Shown one piece after another: positions 3,444-63,405 of a stretch of 64,000 bases of DNA (within the stretch, counting starts at the first letter, position 1; every line of letters starts with the position of its first letter). Source of the stretch: Planctomycetes bacterium syqfu (GTDB taxonomy: Bacteria > Planctomycetota > Phycisphaerae > Phycisphaerales > Phycisphaeraceae); the NCBI GenBank assembly GCA_020974905.1, contig CP087563.1:1798001-1862000 (forward strand). Direction: 5' to 3'. The notes below the pieces were generated by a model. The model was not told the origin of the DNA. It ran no database searches and saw only the letters and a program-made list of their open reading frames with translations. The translations under genes and the position numbers were made by a program.

Positions 3444-3521
3444 CGTTTATGTTCCTGATCGTTTTATTCCCGATCGTATCTCTGAGTTTCGAGAAACATG
3501 CCTCAAACAATCATCATCACC

Positions 3522-3605
3522 CGTCACTCCCGCGCAGGCAGGAGTCCAGTGAAATATGCAAGCGTCTACAGAATGCCACTGGGTTCCCGCCTTCGCGGGA
3601 ATGAC
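3522..3605. repeat. 84-bp dispersed palindromic element, copy 1
   Basis: It starts CGTCACTCCCGCGCAGGC and ends CCTTCGCGGGAATGAC. Each end can form its own hairpin and the two ends are inverted to each other. The centre carries GCAAGCGTCTACAGAATGCC. Related copies lie at 13115-13200 (opposite orientation) and 57944-58035. The size, terminal inverted repeats and lack of coding capacity fit a MITE/REP-like element. It sits between the GldG C-half gene and the DUF4340 gene. Confidence 0.85.
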
Positions 3606-3676
3606 AATGCGTGATCCATATCGCTGAAATGACACATCTTGCTCAAACCATTCATCAATTAAAAAACAACACTACG

Positions 3677-10521: not shown

Positions 10522-10583
10522 ATTTCGGATTTCGGATTTCGGATTTCGGATTTCGGATTTCGGATTTCGGATTTCGGATTTCG
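10522..10583. repeat. tandem heptamer array (ATTTCGG)x8.9
   Basis: Eight perfect copies of ATTTCGG run from 10522 to 10577, followed by a partial ATTTCG ending at 10583. It begins 14 nt after the stop codon of the EIIA gene. No variation between copies is visible, which suggests recent expansion or active homogenisation. Confidence 0.97.
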
Positions 10584-10595
10584 TGCGAATTGTAG

Positions 10596-12873: not shown

Positions 12874-12922
12874 GTCGATTAAGTAAACACAACGTTGATA
12901 TCAGTTGACCTGCGGTCAAACC

Positions 12923-13003
12923 CGCGTCGACACGACGCGGCTCGCCTGCATTGCGCTTGTGTTCTCGCTGTGTCATTCAGGCGAGCCGCCGCGTGTCGCG
13001 GCG
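12923..13003. repeat. inverted pair of 17-nt REP-like hairpins
   Basis: CGCGTCG-ACA-CGACGCG (12923-12939) is followed by GCTCGCCTG. The mirror image CAGGCGAGC leads into CGCCGCG-TGT-CGCGGCG (12987-13003). Each unit is a 7-bp perfect stem with a 3-nt loop. A further single copy with the same GCTCGCCTG flank is at 63357-63382. Confidence 0.85.
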
Positions 13004-13114
13004 GGACAGTGCGAAGCACTGCTTTGAAGTTCACGTGCGTTGTATATCTCAAATTATTGCATTTTTCACTCAAAGAGCTTTTCAAGTCATTCATTTCCAT
13101 GCCATCGTTGATTT

Positions 13115-13200
13115 CGTCATTCCCGCGAAGGCGGGAATCCAGTGGCATTCTGTGCGGACTCTGCAAGTTCCACTGGACTCCCGCCTGCGCGGGAGTGACG
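13115..13200. repeat. 86-bp dispersed palindromic element, copy 2 (inverted)
   Basis: It starts CGTCATTCCCGCGAAGGCGG and ends GCCTGCGCGGGAGTGACG. It is the reverse orientation of the elements at 3522-3605 and 57944-58035, with the same hairpin ends and the ACAGAATGCCA / CAAGTTCCA internal blocks. Confidence 0.88.
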
Positions 13201-13292
13201 AAAAGTGGTGGAGGTTATGCTCTGATCAATGTATTTTCATTTCGTCACAGTACAAGGATCCGCTTACTTCGTGCGCGGCTCGTTGTTGAGAT

Positions 13293-15646: not shown

Positions 15647-15853
15647 AGTGGAGAGCCTCCTGCTCGTCCTAAACGTCTGACCCGAATTCCGACATCCATG
15701 CCGGGGTGGGTCGTTAGAGTTACCTGTTATTCTGAACCGGGTTCTGATAATCCATTGGTTCAGATGAACTGGTAAAGCTATTTATCGGTCAAAGGGTAAA
15801 TTTCTCTGACTTTTTTCTTTGCGTAATCTGAATCAACAGATCAACTTTTTTTA

Positions 15854-16009
15854 CCGCAGAGGCGCAGAGGACGCAGAGTTAAGAAAGAGGCCAAGACATC
15901 AATCATTTGTGTTGTCTTACCCGTCAGATTCACTTCGTTCATCTGGCGGCTTGTGTCTTGATTAAAGATTGACACCTGTCTTAACTCTGCGTCCTTTGCG
16001 TCTCTGCGG
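15854..16009. repeat. 156-bp palindromic element with GCAGAG-periodic arms, copy 1
   Basis: The left arm (15854-15884) is CCGCAGAGG, CGCAGAGGA, CGCAGAG, TTAAGA. The right arm (15979-16009) is its reverse complement with two changes. The arms flank a loop of about 94 nt that itself contains ACAAGACA/TGTCTTG-type inverted pieces. The same arms occur at 60886-61050. It fills the gap before the TolB-like gene; no gene is seen in 15647-16023. Confidence 0.92.
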
Positions 16010-16023
16010 TTAAATCTCTGTCA

Positions 16024-22692: not shown

Positions 22693-24675
22693 ATGACCGC
22701 AACCTCGTCCGACAACATGGTCACCGAAGCTCAGGCCAACGATTTACCCCTGCTTCGGGCCATCAAGACGCCAGCTGACCTCAAGAAGCTCTCCATTGAT
22801 GAGTTGCCCCAACTGGCGCAGGAAATCCGCAACGCCATCTGCCATCAGGTCTCCAAGACCGGCGGCCACCTGGCTCCGAACCTCGGCGTGGTGGAACTGA
22901 CCATCGCCATGCACTACGTCTTTGACTTTGCTTCCGACCGTCTGCTGTTTGATGTGGGTCACCAATGCTACCCGCACAAGCTGCTCACCGGTCGCCTCGA
23001 CCTCATGAGCAAGCTCCGCACCTCCGCGGGGATGTCCGGCTTCCCCGAGCCGGCAGAGTCCCCCTACGACCTGTTCTCCGTCGGACATGCTGGCACCGCG
23101 GTCTCCACAGCTGTGGGCATGGCACGCGGCGACAGTCTCAATGGTGAAGAAAACCGCAAAGTCGCCTGCCTCGTCGGTGACTCCTCCATCGTCAACGGCA
23201 TCTCCATGGAAGGCCTCAACAACGCAGGCACGCTCAAACGCCAGTTCCTCGTCGTGCTCAATGACAACGGCATGTCCATCGCCAAGCCGCAAGGCGCGAT
23301 GGCCAGTTACTTCGATCGTGTCCGTGTCAACCACATGTACGGCGACCTGAAAAAACGTGCACACGAAGTCCTTCAACGCATCCCCGGTGGTTCGACTCTC
23401 GAAGAGGCCTATCACCGCTTTGGTGAAATGGCAAAAGCCGCTGTTTGTCACGATCACATGTTCGAGCAGTTCGGCCTGGTTTGTCTTGGCCCGATTGATG
23501 GTCATGATCTGCCGACCTTGGTGGACATGCTCAACGAAGTCAAGGACATCGACCGCCCCGTGCTGCTGCATGTCAAGACGATCAAGGGCAAAGGTTTCAG
23601 CTTTACCGAAGGCGATGCCACCACGTTCCACAGCCCCAAGCCGTTCACCGTCGAAGGCTGTCGTGTGGAAGTTAAATCCTCCGGCCGCTCGTTCACCAGC
23701 GCCTTTGCTGACGGCATGATCGACCTGATGAAACAGGATGACAAAGTCACCGCCATCACCGCTGCGATGCCCGACGGCACAGGACTCACCAAGATCATGG
23801 CCGAGTTCCCCGATCGATCATTCGACACCGGTATCTGTGAATCACATGCCATGGACATGGCGGCTGGCATGGCAAAGACCGGCTTAAAACCGTTCTTCGC
23901 CGTGTACTCAACCTTCAGTCAACGTGCGCTGGACCAGGTCTTCCAGGAAGTCTCACTCCAAGGCCTTCCCGTCCGCGTCTGCATGGACCGTGCAGGCTAC
24001 GTCGGCGGTGACGGTGCCGTGCATCACGGCTTCATGGACATCAGCATCTTCCGACTGTTCCCCAAGGCAGCTTTGCTCGCCCCCATGGACGAACCGACCC
24101 TCAAGGCCGGACTGGCCTTCATGAAGGACTACAACGACGGTGCTTCGTTCATCCGCTACCCGCGTGACAACGTCGCTGCTCAACCCTTCGAAACCGAGCT
24201 TGCCCCGTTTGAACTGGGTAAAGCTCATCGCATCCGTGAAGCCAAGGACGGCAAACCCAGCGTTGCCATCCTCGCATTGGGCACCATGGCCTACATTGCA
24301 AACACCGCCATCGACGAATTGGAACAGCAAGGCTACAGCGTCGAACTTTACGATGCCCGCTTTGCCACCCCCGTCGATATCGACCTGGTCCAATCGCTCA
24401 TCGAACAAGGCATCAAAGTCATCACCATCGAAGACCACACCTTGATTGGTGGCTTTGGCACCGCGGTTCTTGAAGCGGCATCGGATCGCAATCTCGACAC
24501 CCGCTTGATCAGCCGCATGGGTATGCCTCAGAAATGGGTCCGCCCCGACAGCCGCAACAAACAGCTTGCAGAAAACGGCCTGGATGCAGTAGCCATCGCC
24601 CGCCGCGTCCGCGAAGTGCTCGACGATTCAACCGAATCCGTCAACAGCAAATCACAGGAAGAAGCCCAGGCGTAA
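22693..24675 (+). CDS. dxs: 1-deoxy-D-xylulose-5-phosphate synthase
   Basis: A protein of 660 residues. The thiamine-diphosphate motif is GDSSIVNGISMEGLNN followed by NDNGMSI. The N-terminal GGHLAPNLGVVELT and VGHQCYPHKLLTGR, the central YSTFSQRALDQVFQEV and DRAGYVGGDGAVHHG, and the transketolase C-domain are all in family order. It condenses pyruvate and glyceraldehyde 3-phosphate, the first step of the MEP pathway to isoprenoids. The family's usual GDGA is GDSS here. GAAGGAAAG precedes the ATG. Confidence 0.96.
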   Translation: MTATSSDNMVTEAQANDLPLLRAIKTPADLKKLSIDELPQLAQEIRNAICHQVSKTGGHLAPNLGVVELTIAMHYVFDFASDRLLFDVGHQCYPHKLLTGRLDLMSKLRTSAGMSGFPEPAESPYDLFSVGHAGTAVSTAVGMARGDSLNGEENRKVACLVGDSSIVNGISMEGLNNAGTLKRQFLVVLNDNGMSIAKPQGAMASYFDRVRVNHMYGDLKKRAHEVLQRIPGGSTLEEAYHRFGEMAKAAVCHDHMFEQFGLVCLGPIDGHDLPTLVDMLNEVKDIDRPVLLHVKTIKGKGFSFTEGDATTFHSPKPFTVEGCRVEVKSSGRSFTSAFADGMIDLMKQDDKVTAITAAMPDGTGLTKIMAEFPDRSFDTGICESHAMDMAAGMAKTGLKPFFAVYSTFSQRALDQVFQEVSLQGLPVRVCMDRAGYVGGDGAVHHGFMDISIFRLFPKAALLAPMDEPTLKAGLAFMKDYNDGASFIRYPRDNVAAQPFETELAPFELGKAHRIREAKDGKPSVAILALGTMAYIANTAIDELEQQGYSVELYDARFATPVDIDLVQSLIEQGIKVITIEDHTLIGGFGTAVLEAASDRNLDTRLISRMGMPQKWVRPDSRNKQLAENGLDAVAIARRVREVLDDSTESVNSKSQEEAQA

Positions 24676-24699
24676 GCAAACATCACAACAGACAAACAA

Positions 24700-24738
24700 A
24701 AACACGAGATGAATCACCACGGTTCATCTCGCGTTTTT
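24700..24738 (+). terminator. intrinsic terminator of dxs
   Basis: CGAGATGAA (24705-24713) pairs with TTCATCTCG (24723-24731), extended by one or two flanking pairs, then CGTTTTTATG. It starts 25 nt after the dxs stop codon. Confidence 0.88.
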
Positions 24739-24878
24739 ATGTTTTGGATCGGATCAGCGACACGTCCCCCGGAGAATGTCGCAGCTATCTTTCACACGTC
24801 TGATCAAATCTCAACACGTTGCATCACATGATCACGCAATGCGGATAATGACACACAAGTAAACGCTCCGCATTTACA

Positions 24879-25050
24879 GCATTGCATCGCAATGCAGCTA
24901 TCATTGCGTCTGACTTCGATATTACACAAGTATTCTTGTTCTTTGATGATTCTATCTCGATAGCTGCGTTGCGCCGCAACGCTGAAACTGCAAAGCAGTT
25001 TATCATCGACTTTCTAAAATATTAACCCTAGCTGCATCACCACGTGATGC
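24879..25050. repeat. cluster of three 17-nt REP-like hairpins
   Basis: Three units each have a 7-bp perfect stem and a 3-nt loop: GCATTGC-ATC-GCAATGC (24879-24895), GCGTTGC-GCC-GCAACGC (24966-24982) and GCATCAC-CAC-GTGATGC (25034-25050). Each borders an AGCT (TAGCT before the second and third, AGCTA after the first). The stems differ in sequence but keep pairing. The gap 24739-25086 holds nothing else that I recognise. Confidence 0.88.
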
Positions 25051-25086
25051 TGTTGATCAAAGATGCAAGACACAAGCAACTTCGAC

Positions 25087-25815
25087 TCACCGCACCACTA
25101 CCGGTAAATCATTCATGCCCACACACGCGACTTTCATTTCCTTGGCGAGTTTCAAAATTTCTTCCAGATAGTCGATCTGCGTGTGATGACCTTCGTTGGT
25201 ACCCGCACTGATGTTGTGGCCGTAGAACGTCATGTACTGGCCGCGATCCAAAAGCTGCGCGAAAATCTGTTTCCAGACATCAAGCGGAATCGCAGCTTTG
25301 GGTTCACCGCGAATGATGGTGTCCGTCGATGCGCCAGGCATCATACGTTGCGTGGGCAGCGTCTCCAGATCAAACATCCCTGGCATCAAATTTTCAAACA
25401 CCGTGCGGTCAATCTGCCCAAGTCCACAACGAAAGCGATCGAACCGATCAAACAATCGGGCATTGGTCTTTTCGTCGTAGTTGTTATATGCGTAGGCATA
25501 GTTGGTGATGTTCCAACCATGTGCGTCATACCAATCGATGCAGGGTTTGACTTCATCTTCCCAGAATTTTTCGATGCCGTTGTCCTGACTGTACTGCACC
25601 GGCCAGACATGTCGCCAACCGTGACAACCGATGGTCTGCCCTGCTGCCATGAGTTGCTCGGCTTTGGTGATCTGCTCGTCGGTGAGTTTATCAAGGTTGT
25701 TCAGATAGAAGGTGACCTTGGCGTCATACTTTTCCAACACGGGCAAAAAGGCGTGCCAATTGTCGATATGATAATCATCAAACGTCAGCAGAATACAGGG
25801 GGCGATCTGTGCCAT
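25087..25815 (-). CDS. polysaccharide deacetylase family protein
   Basis: A product of 242 residues with the NodB/CE4 fold: ILLTFDDYHIDNW supplies the catalytic and metal-binding TFDD motif, and IGCHGWRHVW the second H(S/T)xxH-like motif (here H-G-W-R-H). YDAKVTFYLNN matches the A.ATFF core. There is no signal peptide, so it acts in the cytoplasm; several such cytosolic proteins act on small amides or sugar acids rather than on polymers. ATG 25815 follows GAGG with 6 nt spacing; GTG 25827 is in frame. It lies downstream of the lactonase gene but behind a hairpin terminator. Confidence 0.75.
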   Translation of the reverse strand: MAQIAPCILLTFDDYHIDNWHAFLPVLEKYDAKVTFYLNNLDKLTDEQITKAEQLMAAGQTIGCHGWRHVWPVQYSQDNGIEKFWEDEVKPCIDWYDAHGWNITNYAYAYNNYDEKTNARLFDRFDRFRCGLGQIDRTVFENLMPGMFDLETLPTQRMMPGASTDTIIRGEPKAAIPLDVWKQIFAQLLDRGQYMTFYGHNISAGTNEGHHTQIDYLEEILKLAKEMKVACVGMNDLPVVVR

Positions 25816-25838
25816 GGGAGTCCTCACATCCGAGCGAT

Positions 25839-57910: not shown

Positions 57911-57943
57911 GACGAATCACTTTGGCATTTCACGCCCAAATTC

Positions 57944-58035
57944 CGTCACTCCCGCGCAGGCGGGAGTCCAATGGAACTTGCAAGCGTCTACAGAATGTCA
58001 CAGAATTCCCGCCTTCCGCCTGCGCGGGAATGACG
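57944..58035. repeat. 92-bp dispersed palindromic element, copy 3
   Basis: It starts CGTCACTCCCGCGCAGGCGG and ends CTGCGCGGGAATGACG, in the same orientation as 3522-3605, with GCAAGCGTCTACAGAATG inside. The right arm carries an extra CCGCCTTC-like 8-nt duplication. Confidence 0.9.
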
Positions 58036-58078
58036 AACAGGTGTCATCTGACAACCAACAAACGCAAAACATATCCAT

Positions 58079-60797: not shown

Positions 60798-60885
60798 GGT
60801 GTTGTCTCCTATGTTGGCACATTGTAGTGAGTCGGAGCCATTTTGTCATTCAGTATTACAAATTCATTTTCAAGACCGTTTTTCA

Positions 60886-61050
60886 CCGCAGAGGCGCAGA
60901 GGACGCAGAGTTAAGACAGGTTCAGATTGTTAATCTTGACTTATATCAGATCGGTTCACATCAGACGGTGTTCGTAGTCTCGGATTTTGAACAATAAAAA
61001 TATTACATCGTTTTTCCTGTCTTAACTCTGCGTCCTCTGCGTCTCTGCGG
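60886..61050. repeat. 165-bp palindromic element with GCAGAG-periodic arms, copy 2
   Basis: The left arm (60886-60920) and right arm (61016-61050) are inverted 35-mers with a single mismatch: CCGCAGAGG, CGCAGAGGA, CGCAGAG, TTAAGACAGG. The arms equal those at 15854-16009, while the 95-nt loops are unrelated. It lies in the divergent xylB/permease gap, which otherwise shows nothing clear. Confidence 0.95.
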
Positions 61051-61093
61051 TAGATAAAAAAATGTCTCAAACCAAAAACCGTACAATGTCAGC

Positions 61094-63236: not shown

Positions 63237-63356
63237 GATGGAAATTGTAGTGACTTTTGGGAAACCTGCTTAATTGAAACTCATGTCGTGCAACAACAAC
63301 GTGCTTCTGCAGAATGTGCCCCAACTCAGAAGTTAAATTTGAGCTTCGCTCAATCC

Positions 63357-63382
63357 CGCGTTGGCACAACGCGGCTCGCCTG
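63357..63382. repeat. single 17-nt REP-like hairpin with GCTCGCCTG flank
   Basis: CGCGTTG-GCA-CAACGCG (63357-63373) is followed by GCTCGCCTG, the same flank as the unit at 12923-12948, while the stem has changed by a compensated base pair (C-G to T-A). Confidence 0.85.
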
Positions 63383-63405
63383 AGTTGAGGTGTTCGACCC
63401 GTGAC

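Follow-up and report, generated by a model that had tools for sequence, protein, structure and literature searches.

Three short hairpins in the window (the whole stretch of DNA that was analysed, 64,000 nt in length) are copies of a dispersed, genome-wide family of short, likely mobile repeats. It is very likely that these hairpins are REP elements spread by an IS200/IS605-like HUH tyrosine transposase (RAYT, TnpA-REP) that is encoded elsewhere in the genome. This reading draws on the anatomy of the hairpins, the nature of the enzyme, the adjacency of the two, and the association of hairpin class with RAYT. The features that define REP elements were found: the hairpin is extragenic and present in high copy, it carries a conserved 5' motif, and copies of it flank a RAYT gene. 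The family lies outside the strict GTAG superfamily because its head reads ATAG in 85 of 105 copies and GTAG in 5/105, AGCY being fixed by the search pattern itself.

Hairpins between dxs and a deacetylase gene

The sequence-only reading had described three 17-nt hairpins at positions 24879-25050, each with seven base pairs, a 3-nt loop, and an adjoining AGCT. Inspection of the window's letters confirmed every part of this description, and 7/7 pairs are intact in each stem. AGCT lies 5' of the hairpin when copy 1 is read on the minus strand and copies 2 and 3 on the plus strand. The site is flanked on one side by dxs (22693-24675; DXP_synthase_N, 4e-103) and on the other by a polysaccharide deacetylase gene on the minus strand (25087-25827; PF01522, 3e-13). 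That reading had missed the second hairpins and the decayed fourth copy, which are included in the following list.

24755-24786, minus strand: decayed copy, oldest of the array; AGCT (24786-24783), GCGACAT, a 12-nt loop that replaces TGC, GTGTCGC, TG
24859-24877, minus strand: copy 1, hairpin 2; GTAAATGC-GGA-GCGTTTAC, 8 pairs including one G.T; DNA fold z -3.8
24879-24901 (stem 24879-24895), minus strand: copy 1, hairpin 1 with head ATAGCT; GCATTGC/GCAATGC, loop GAT; TTGC class, A-type; genome position G000:C1:1822877-1822899
24960-24982 (stem 24966-24982), plus strand: copy 2, hairpin 1 with head ATAGCT; GCGTTGC/GCAACGC, loop GCC; TTGC class, G-type; head-to-head partner of copy 1
24985-25001, plus strand: copy 2, hairpin 2; AAACTGC-AAA-GCAGTTT, the most frequent second stem of the family
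25030-25052 (stem 25034-25050), plus strand: copy 3, hairpin 1 with AGCT (CTAGCT here) and TG; GCATCAC/GTGATGC, loop CAC; ACAC class, A-type
25053-25068, plus strand: copy 3, decayed hairpin 2; TTGATC-AAA-GATGCAA, without a fold in DNA folding

Could the hairpins be transcription terminators or mRNA 3'-end stabilizers that are kept as RNA structures at gene ends? Copies 1 and 2 of the window fold well in DNA folding, and 49 of the 92 family copies with both neighbours called lie between convergent genes; both observations favor such a role. However, dxs has a terminator-like repeat of its own (24698-24738) that is conserved in two other genomes of the genus (G001 and G003; the window's genome is G000) and lies upstream of every window copy. 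Moreover, no long T-run follows the hairpins in the window, copies at one site differ among relatives, and neither the adjacency to RAYT genes nor the 20/20 heteropairs described below would be expected of terminators. We therefore regard this alternative as improbable and retain the REP reading.

A dispersed family with two types of head

Counted within the window, hairpins show no excess: 9 perfect 7-bp/3-nt hairpins occur in 64 kb, vs 1-10 in 20 first-order Markov samples. The excess over controls on which the sequence-only reading had staked its proposal appears at the level of the genome. The pattern AGCYGC-N4-C-N3-G-N4-GCTG occurs at 103 places in the 7.38-Mb genome (48 on the forward and 55 on the reverse strand of the contig), compared with 5 for the reversed pattern. 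The three further genomes of this genus gave 79 vs 8, 26 vs 0, and 74 vs 3. Among the 57 remaining relatives, most show no such excess, and the control count is often the higher one. The copy set used below was obtained by reducing 115 script matches to 107 and then to 105. Ninety-five of these 105 copies are extragenic, although naive ORFs (at least 100 codons) cover 83.5% of the fetched DNA.

Each unit consists, in order, of ATAG-CY, a 7-bp stem that starts and ends with GC, a 3-nt loop, and TG. Hairpin 1 has stems of a few classes (TTGC, ATCAC/AACAC, and GACAC), and copy 3 is not in the class of copies 1 and 2. Two heads occur in the family: AGCC copies mostly have one hairpin, and AGCT copies usually have a second hairpin ~2 bases on. 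AGCC copies often carry the tail TGGTGYCTTG; among the G-type copies with this head, the tail TGRTGYCT is present in 10/22 and hairpin 2, identified by the loose rule defined below, in 2/22.

Other repeats were observed in the same DNA. A second REP-like family (CGCGTCG-ACA-CGACGCG-GCTCGCCT) is found at window positions 12905-13017 and 63339-63387, and its likely relatives (CCGCGGTG-ACA-CACCGCGG-CTCGCCT) flank a RAYT-like gene at G000:C1:4588270-4588821. A third palindromic family of the GTCATTCCCGCGAAGGCGGGAATCCA type occupies positions 3521-3611, 13116-13208, and 57936-58040; a copy of this type is also present in the G001 site downstream of dxs. Inverted pairs of ACCGCAGAGGCGCAGAGGACGCAGAGTTAAGA with arms of 36-46 nt set 74-95 nt apart lie at 15847-16014 and 60879-61058, and a tandem array of the 7-mer ATTTCGG at 10522-10591. 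Three further RAYT-like genes of the genome are each flanked by a hairpin type of their own: L047 (G000:C1:22406-22942) by CCGAGTCA-AGA, L048 (G000:C1:771285-771803) by CCGGATCG-ACA, and L131 (G000:C1:1188113-1188559) by GCACCGGAT-TAAC. The genome therefore contains at least six RAYT/hairpin sets.

Covariation in hairpin 1 and hairpin 2

In an unselected test with a fixed register, at least 6/7 pairs of hairpin 2 formed in 41 of 73 AGCT copies, compared with ~8 after shuffling. Removal of copies with the commonest stem, AAACTGC, left 24/56 AGCT copies vs ~1.6 shuffled, and the same test yielded 1/21 for AGCC copies. The 41 paired copies contain twenty different 5' arms in one geometry; their stems include AAACTGC, TATCGC, TTGCATC, AAACGGC, AAACGTC, AGAAGAC, AACTTGC, ATCATGC, and others, and the loop is AAA, GCA, or GAA in 30/41. 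According to a loose rule, which allows G.T and shifted registers and was applied without a shuffle control, hairpin 2 accompanies 20/20 GCA..GC, 18/21 GCA..AC, 15/17 GCG..GC, and 8/23 GCG..AC stems of AGCT copies. No copy has both the tail and hairpin 2 by this rule, an exclusion that is partly trivial because both use the same bases.

For hairpin 1, all four free pairs are Watson-Crick in 84 of 100 pattern places (those of the 103 that lie within fetched DNA); random reassignment of the 3' arms among copies leaves 18.8 such places on average. An alignment of 48 AGCT copies, picked for at least 6/7 pairs in hairpin 2, revealed standard pairs in 97.9% of 672 pair cells and 152 two-sided changes vs 42.8 shuffled, with such changes at 12/14 pairs. 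The hairpin-2 counts of this alignment are biased because its rows were chosen on hairpin 2, its pair cells are not independent events because related copies share ancestry, and part of the covariation in hairpin 1 reflects subfamily inheritance because the stems fall into few classes. These results bear on the earlier claim that the fold rather than the sequence is retained. The pairing is indeed kept, but hairpin 1 is not free in sequence: its ATAG-CY head, the GC/GC foot of its stem, the TG that follows, and a few loop types are conserved. The claim better suits the second hairpin, which the sequence-only reading had not seen.

Covariation this strong in both stems might also suggest a structured RNA or riboswitch-like family of intergenic regions. 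The same covariation fits single-stranded DNA equally well, however, and inverted pairs and species-specific copy numbers fit a mobile repeat. An Rfam search of positions 24600-25200 gave two matches, both far under the gathering score. The RNA alternative thus appears highly improbable, and we continue to interpret the hairpins as REP elements. Integron sites of the attC type were likewise set aside on anatomy, two successive hairpins.

The sequence AAACTGC-N3-GCAGTTT occurs at 25 places in G000, 7 in G001, 4 in G003, and 0 in the other 18 of 21 genomes. An independent repeat was ruled out, since 24 of the 25 places in G000 fall inside the matches listed for a two-hairpin model; hairpin 2 is therefore an appendage. 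This model matched at least 95, 90, 47, and 85 places in G000, G001, G002, and G003, respectively (98 candidates were scored per genome, which makes these values lower bounds, and own-genome matches include training copies), and it is present in 8/61 genomes overall. Our best guess is that hairpin 2 would take over from the tail that single-hairpin copies carry, as a structural stop or a second contact for the protein.

Head-to-head heteropairs among AGCT copies

Fifty-four of the 105 copies belong to opposite-strand pairs within 150 nt, and 51 do not. The pairs include 21 that are head-to-head, an arrangement that the sequence-only reading had overlooked. All 20 that contain an AGCT copy are heteropairs of an A-type stem (GCA; one GCT) and a G-type stem (GCG), a rule with a probability of ~1e-5 by permutation. 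In these AGCT pairs the heads face each other 24-107 nt apart and the second hairpins lie outside; 19/20 are of one class. The sole AGCC/AGCC head-to-head pair is not a heteropair. Seven pairs are tail-to-tail, five of them AGCC pairs at 71-73 nt with the inverted layout of a REPIN. Published REP families described in PMC3733652 also include strict heterodimers, and the heteropair rule by itself is therefore no novelty.

RAYT genes adjoin the hairpins

A search for RAYT genes, suggested with the sequence-only reading, located them beside the family. The PF01797 profile identified six Y1 genes in the genome. One of these, the RAYT gene at G000:C1:1441311-1441814, is bracketed by AGCC hairpins (1441212, 1441871, and 1441943). 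A protein search with this RAYT detected a 54% identical gene at 4268221-4268682 that is preceded by a head-to-head AGCT pair with second hairpins and followed by what appear to be decayed remains. This gene, the RAYT of the AGCT family, was not among the six PF01797 genes and was found by protein search only; it scores 19.2 against a PF01797 cut-off of 23. The RAYT protein P0001 is also under curated cut-offs (17.4 vs 80 for NF047646 and 22.7 vs 23 for PF01797), and its gene exceeded the cut-off in the genome search only with its neighbours in frame. Beside the RAYT genes of G001 and G003 (the latter as far as its contig reaches) lie ACAC-class AGCT hairpins; the outer, A-type ones have hairpin 2, and the inner, G-type ones have the tail.

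Scanning a collection of genome contigs with one conserved peptide pattern disclosed 34 RAYT loci, all from planctomycetes by title. A headed hairpin lies within 200 bp of the gene at 27 of the 33 loci used in the adjacency test, on both sides in 21, compared with 1/33 for control windows 700-900 bp away; the head pattern had been chosen after earlier loci were seen, and windows were full-length in 64/66 test and 62/66 control cases (four upstream control windows were missing). The remaining 6/33 lack a hairpin by the filter used. GTAG occurs beside some of the relatives' RAYTs, for example L144, L157, and L162. The RAYT protein reaches E <= 1e-30 in 16/61 relatives. Among 119 planctomycete genomes drawn evenly, none but its own passes this threshold, and the RAYT clade is therefore patchy.

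In a tree of RAYTs whose bootstrap has not settled, the three beside AGCT double hairpins (G000, G001, and G003) form a clade with 99/99 support, and most of the RAYTs that carry AGCC-TAC hairpins fall in another group (7 rows, 88/79). Two exceptions were noted: L143 (AGCC-TAC) lies outside the AGCC-TAC group, and L109 (AGCT, without hairpin 2) lies outside the AGCT clade. Hairpin 2 was seen only at the three AGCT-clade loci among 14 RAYT loci inspected.

Alignment of 28 of the 34 RAYT loci shows that H84, H86, Y143, and H147 (numbered as in L138, a G001-type RAYT) are invariant in 28/28 rows, and the tyrosine motif is mostly YLPxH. An AlphaFold model of L138 (pLDDT 93.6) places Y143, the likely catalytic residue, in the last helix. 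The RAYT, a protein of 154-157 aa, has the HUH motif, the tyrosine in the C-terminal helix, and the Y1 fold. The best Foldseek match of the model was 4er8, a REP transposase with its hairpin (E 5e-5, TM 0.53/0.50), which we take to be from E. coli. VIA-align ranked IS200/ISDra2/IS608 transposases first (Z 12.5-14.0) and aligned L138 with 4er8 at Z 11.6 and an rmsd of 2.6 over 119 residues. Thg1 and parvovirus NS1 nuclease folds are also listed below the Y1 transposases (Z ~8-9.6). A search of solved structures with the RAYT sequence profile gave no match at E 0.1.

Hairpin classes in the genus and at the orthologous site

AGCT hairpins of the TTGC class number 27/2/0/1 in G000/G001/G002/G003; those of the ACAC class number 44/61/15/71, and AGCC copies 23/5/1/1 (the AGCC value of G001 includes one hairpin twice, once per strand). 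The AGCT RAYT carries the TTGC class in G000 and the ACAC class in G001 and G003. Copy number is not always in step with the RAYT, which speaks against a simple rule: G000 has 44 ACAC copies though its AGCT RAYT carries the TTGC class, and in G002, which is 78% complete, an AGCC-type RAYT (L101) is accompanied by a single AGCC-pattern copy, and 15 ACAC copies occur with no AGCT-type RAYT found.

The ACAC copies of G002, for which a matching RAYT was not found, are among the observations that would be accommodated if palindromic repeats had spread by recombination or replication slippage without a dedicated transposase and their adjacency to RAYT genes were secondary. About half of the copies are single (51/105), and arrays differ among relatives, as this alternative would allow. 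However, headed hairpins bracket RAYTs far oftener than control windows, and G000, whose RAYT carries the TTGC class, is alone in showing an expansion of it. We consider spread without a transposase quite improbable and favor RAYT-borne REP elements, although recombination or gene conversion could be other routes by which copies spread.

At the orthologous site, dxs is 99% identical in G001 and 90% in G003. The leftmost hairpin, decayed in the window, has an intact counterpart (AGCT-GCGACAC-TGC-GTGTCGC) at the same place in both genomes. G003 has a simple head-to-head pair, and G001 has perhaps a truncated right element and an unrelated GGCGGG-type repeat. The TTGC-class pair, copies 1 and 2, is absent from the site in G001 and G003, which the sequence-only reading had not noted, and the few TTGC copies of these genomes lie on other contigs. 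These findings are compatible with either a recent gain of this pair or two separate losses of it. Copy 3 aligns with the right element of G003 with a score of 55 (best of 200 shuffles, 23), and the second hairpin of that element is TTGCATC-ATT-GATGCAA; the decayed sequence at 24777-24840 aligns with the same element with a score of 40 (best shuffle, 20). Matches between the window and G001 fall within the shuffle range (27, best shuffle 29; 21, best shuffle 25). The array differs in all three genomes, so there is no clean empty site. A clean nested insertion into an older pair was dropped because the array pieces do not support one history, and we therefore claim only the presence or absence of the TTGC-class pair.

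Model for spread of the hairpins

In the proposed model, RAYT would bind single-stranded hairpin 1 through its stem, its loop, and the 5' head ATAG-CY as a guide, and would cut beside it through a phosphotyrosine link. Strand transfer by the enzyme, which may still be active, would mobilize or copy hairpins, singly or paired, into extragenic single-stranded DNA. The RAYT at 1441314-1441784 would serve the AGCC copies, and the one at 4268221-4268682 the AGCT copies of the TTGC class, copies 1 and 2 among them. Copy 3 and the rest of the ACAC class would be a layer common to this genome and its relatives; in two of the latter the RAYT carries ACAC-class hairpins. Transposition is a prediction of the model; no transposition event, target site, or excision product was observed in the genomes compared.

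It is tempting to speculate, though we hold it doubtful, that the family represents a separate REP architecture. Tandem two-hairpin units, in which only the geometry of hairpin 2 would be under selection (mostly 7 bp with a 3-nt loop, a 2-nt linker, and a C-G closing pair), would provide a second recognition or stop element for a planctomycete RAYT clade with His as third metal ligand instead of Asn/Gln. This clade would move A-type and G-type copies strictly as heteropairs, the two serving as asymmetric left and right ends.

The spread of REPs is described as poorly understood in the relevant passage of PMC8266576. Four genomes of one genus have recognizable hairpin classes, and two carry the class of their own RAYT; at one site, a single species has the newer class and two others lack it. 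The genus offers enzymes together with their matching substrates for tests of binding and cleavage outside Proteobacteria, and the second hairpin provides a natural mutagenesis series.

Comparison with known systems

The family resembles the REP/BIME system of E. coli with its TnpA-REP (RAYT subclass 2.2) in that extragenic hairpins carry a 5' tetranucleotide, form inverted pairs of two subtypes (Y and Z2 in E. coli), and flank an HUH Y1 transposase of the same fold. Unlike E. coli REPs, the hairpins described here have ATAG-CY rather than GTAG at the foot, a perfect 7-bp stem without a bulge, and a second hairpin. The enzyme also differs in its tyrosine motif, Y-x3-H in place of the YIHYNP given for TnpA-REP in Table 1 of PMC6006769. 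The Y motifs entered in that table for Y1 subclasses 1.1-3 have Q or NP only, and comparison by eye with the table, rather than with the authors' HMMs, places Y-x3-H in no listed TnpA-Y1 subclass. H147 may replace the Q/N ligand of the published motifs.

The five AGCC tail-to-tail pairs, among seven in all, recall the REPINs of Pseudomonas fluorescens SBW25; the spacing of 71-73 nt compares with 71 bp between the 16-mers of the GI REPIN in the excerpted text of PMC3116915. The window's AGCT pairs differ from SBW25 REPINs in being head-to-head, 24-107 nt apart, with second hairpins outside.

Class 3 TnpA-Y1 enzymes, assigned in part of PMC6006769 to Planctomycetes, Acidobacteria, and Proteobacteria, are similar in that a planctomycete Y1 transposase accompanies atypical high-copy hairpins. 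As that source presents them, they have Y----Q and a CnGA foot, in contrast to the YLPxH and ATAG-CY found here.

A further parallel is provided by the double inverted repeats of P. putida and P. fluorescens, described in a section of PMC3733652 as a degenerate GTAG-1 unit joined to an unrelated stem-loop. These repeats likewise combine a REP-like hairpin with a second stem-loop, number in the hundreds, and flank tyrosine transposase genes. By that description the first unit is degenerate in Pseudomonas; in the present family the first hairpin is intact, and the changes in the second are compensatory. No description of this two-hairpin ATAG family was found in the literature searched, most subscription papers being outside its scope. 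The Pseudomonas units set a precedent, so the system is of a known category, and what is new within that literature is the variant; its distinguishing features are two-hairpin REPs, an ATAG head, RAYTs that score under curated HMM cut-offs, and the Y-x3-H motif.
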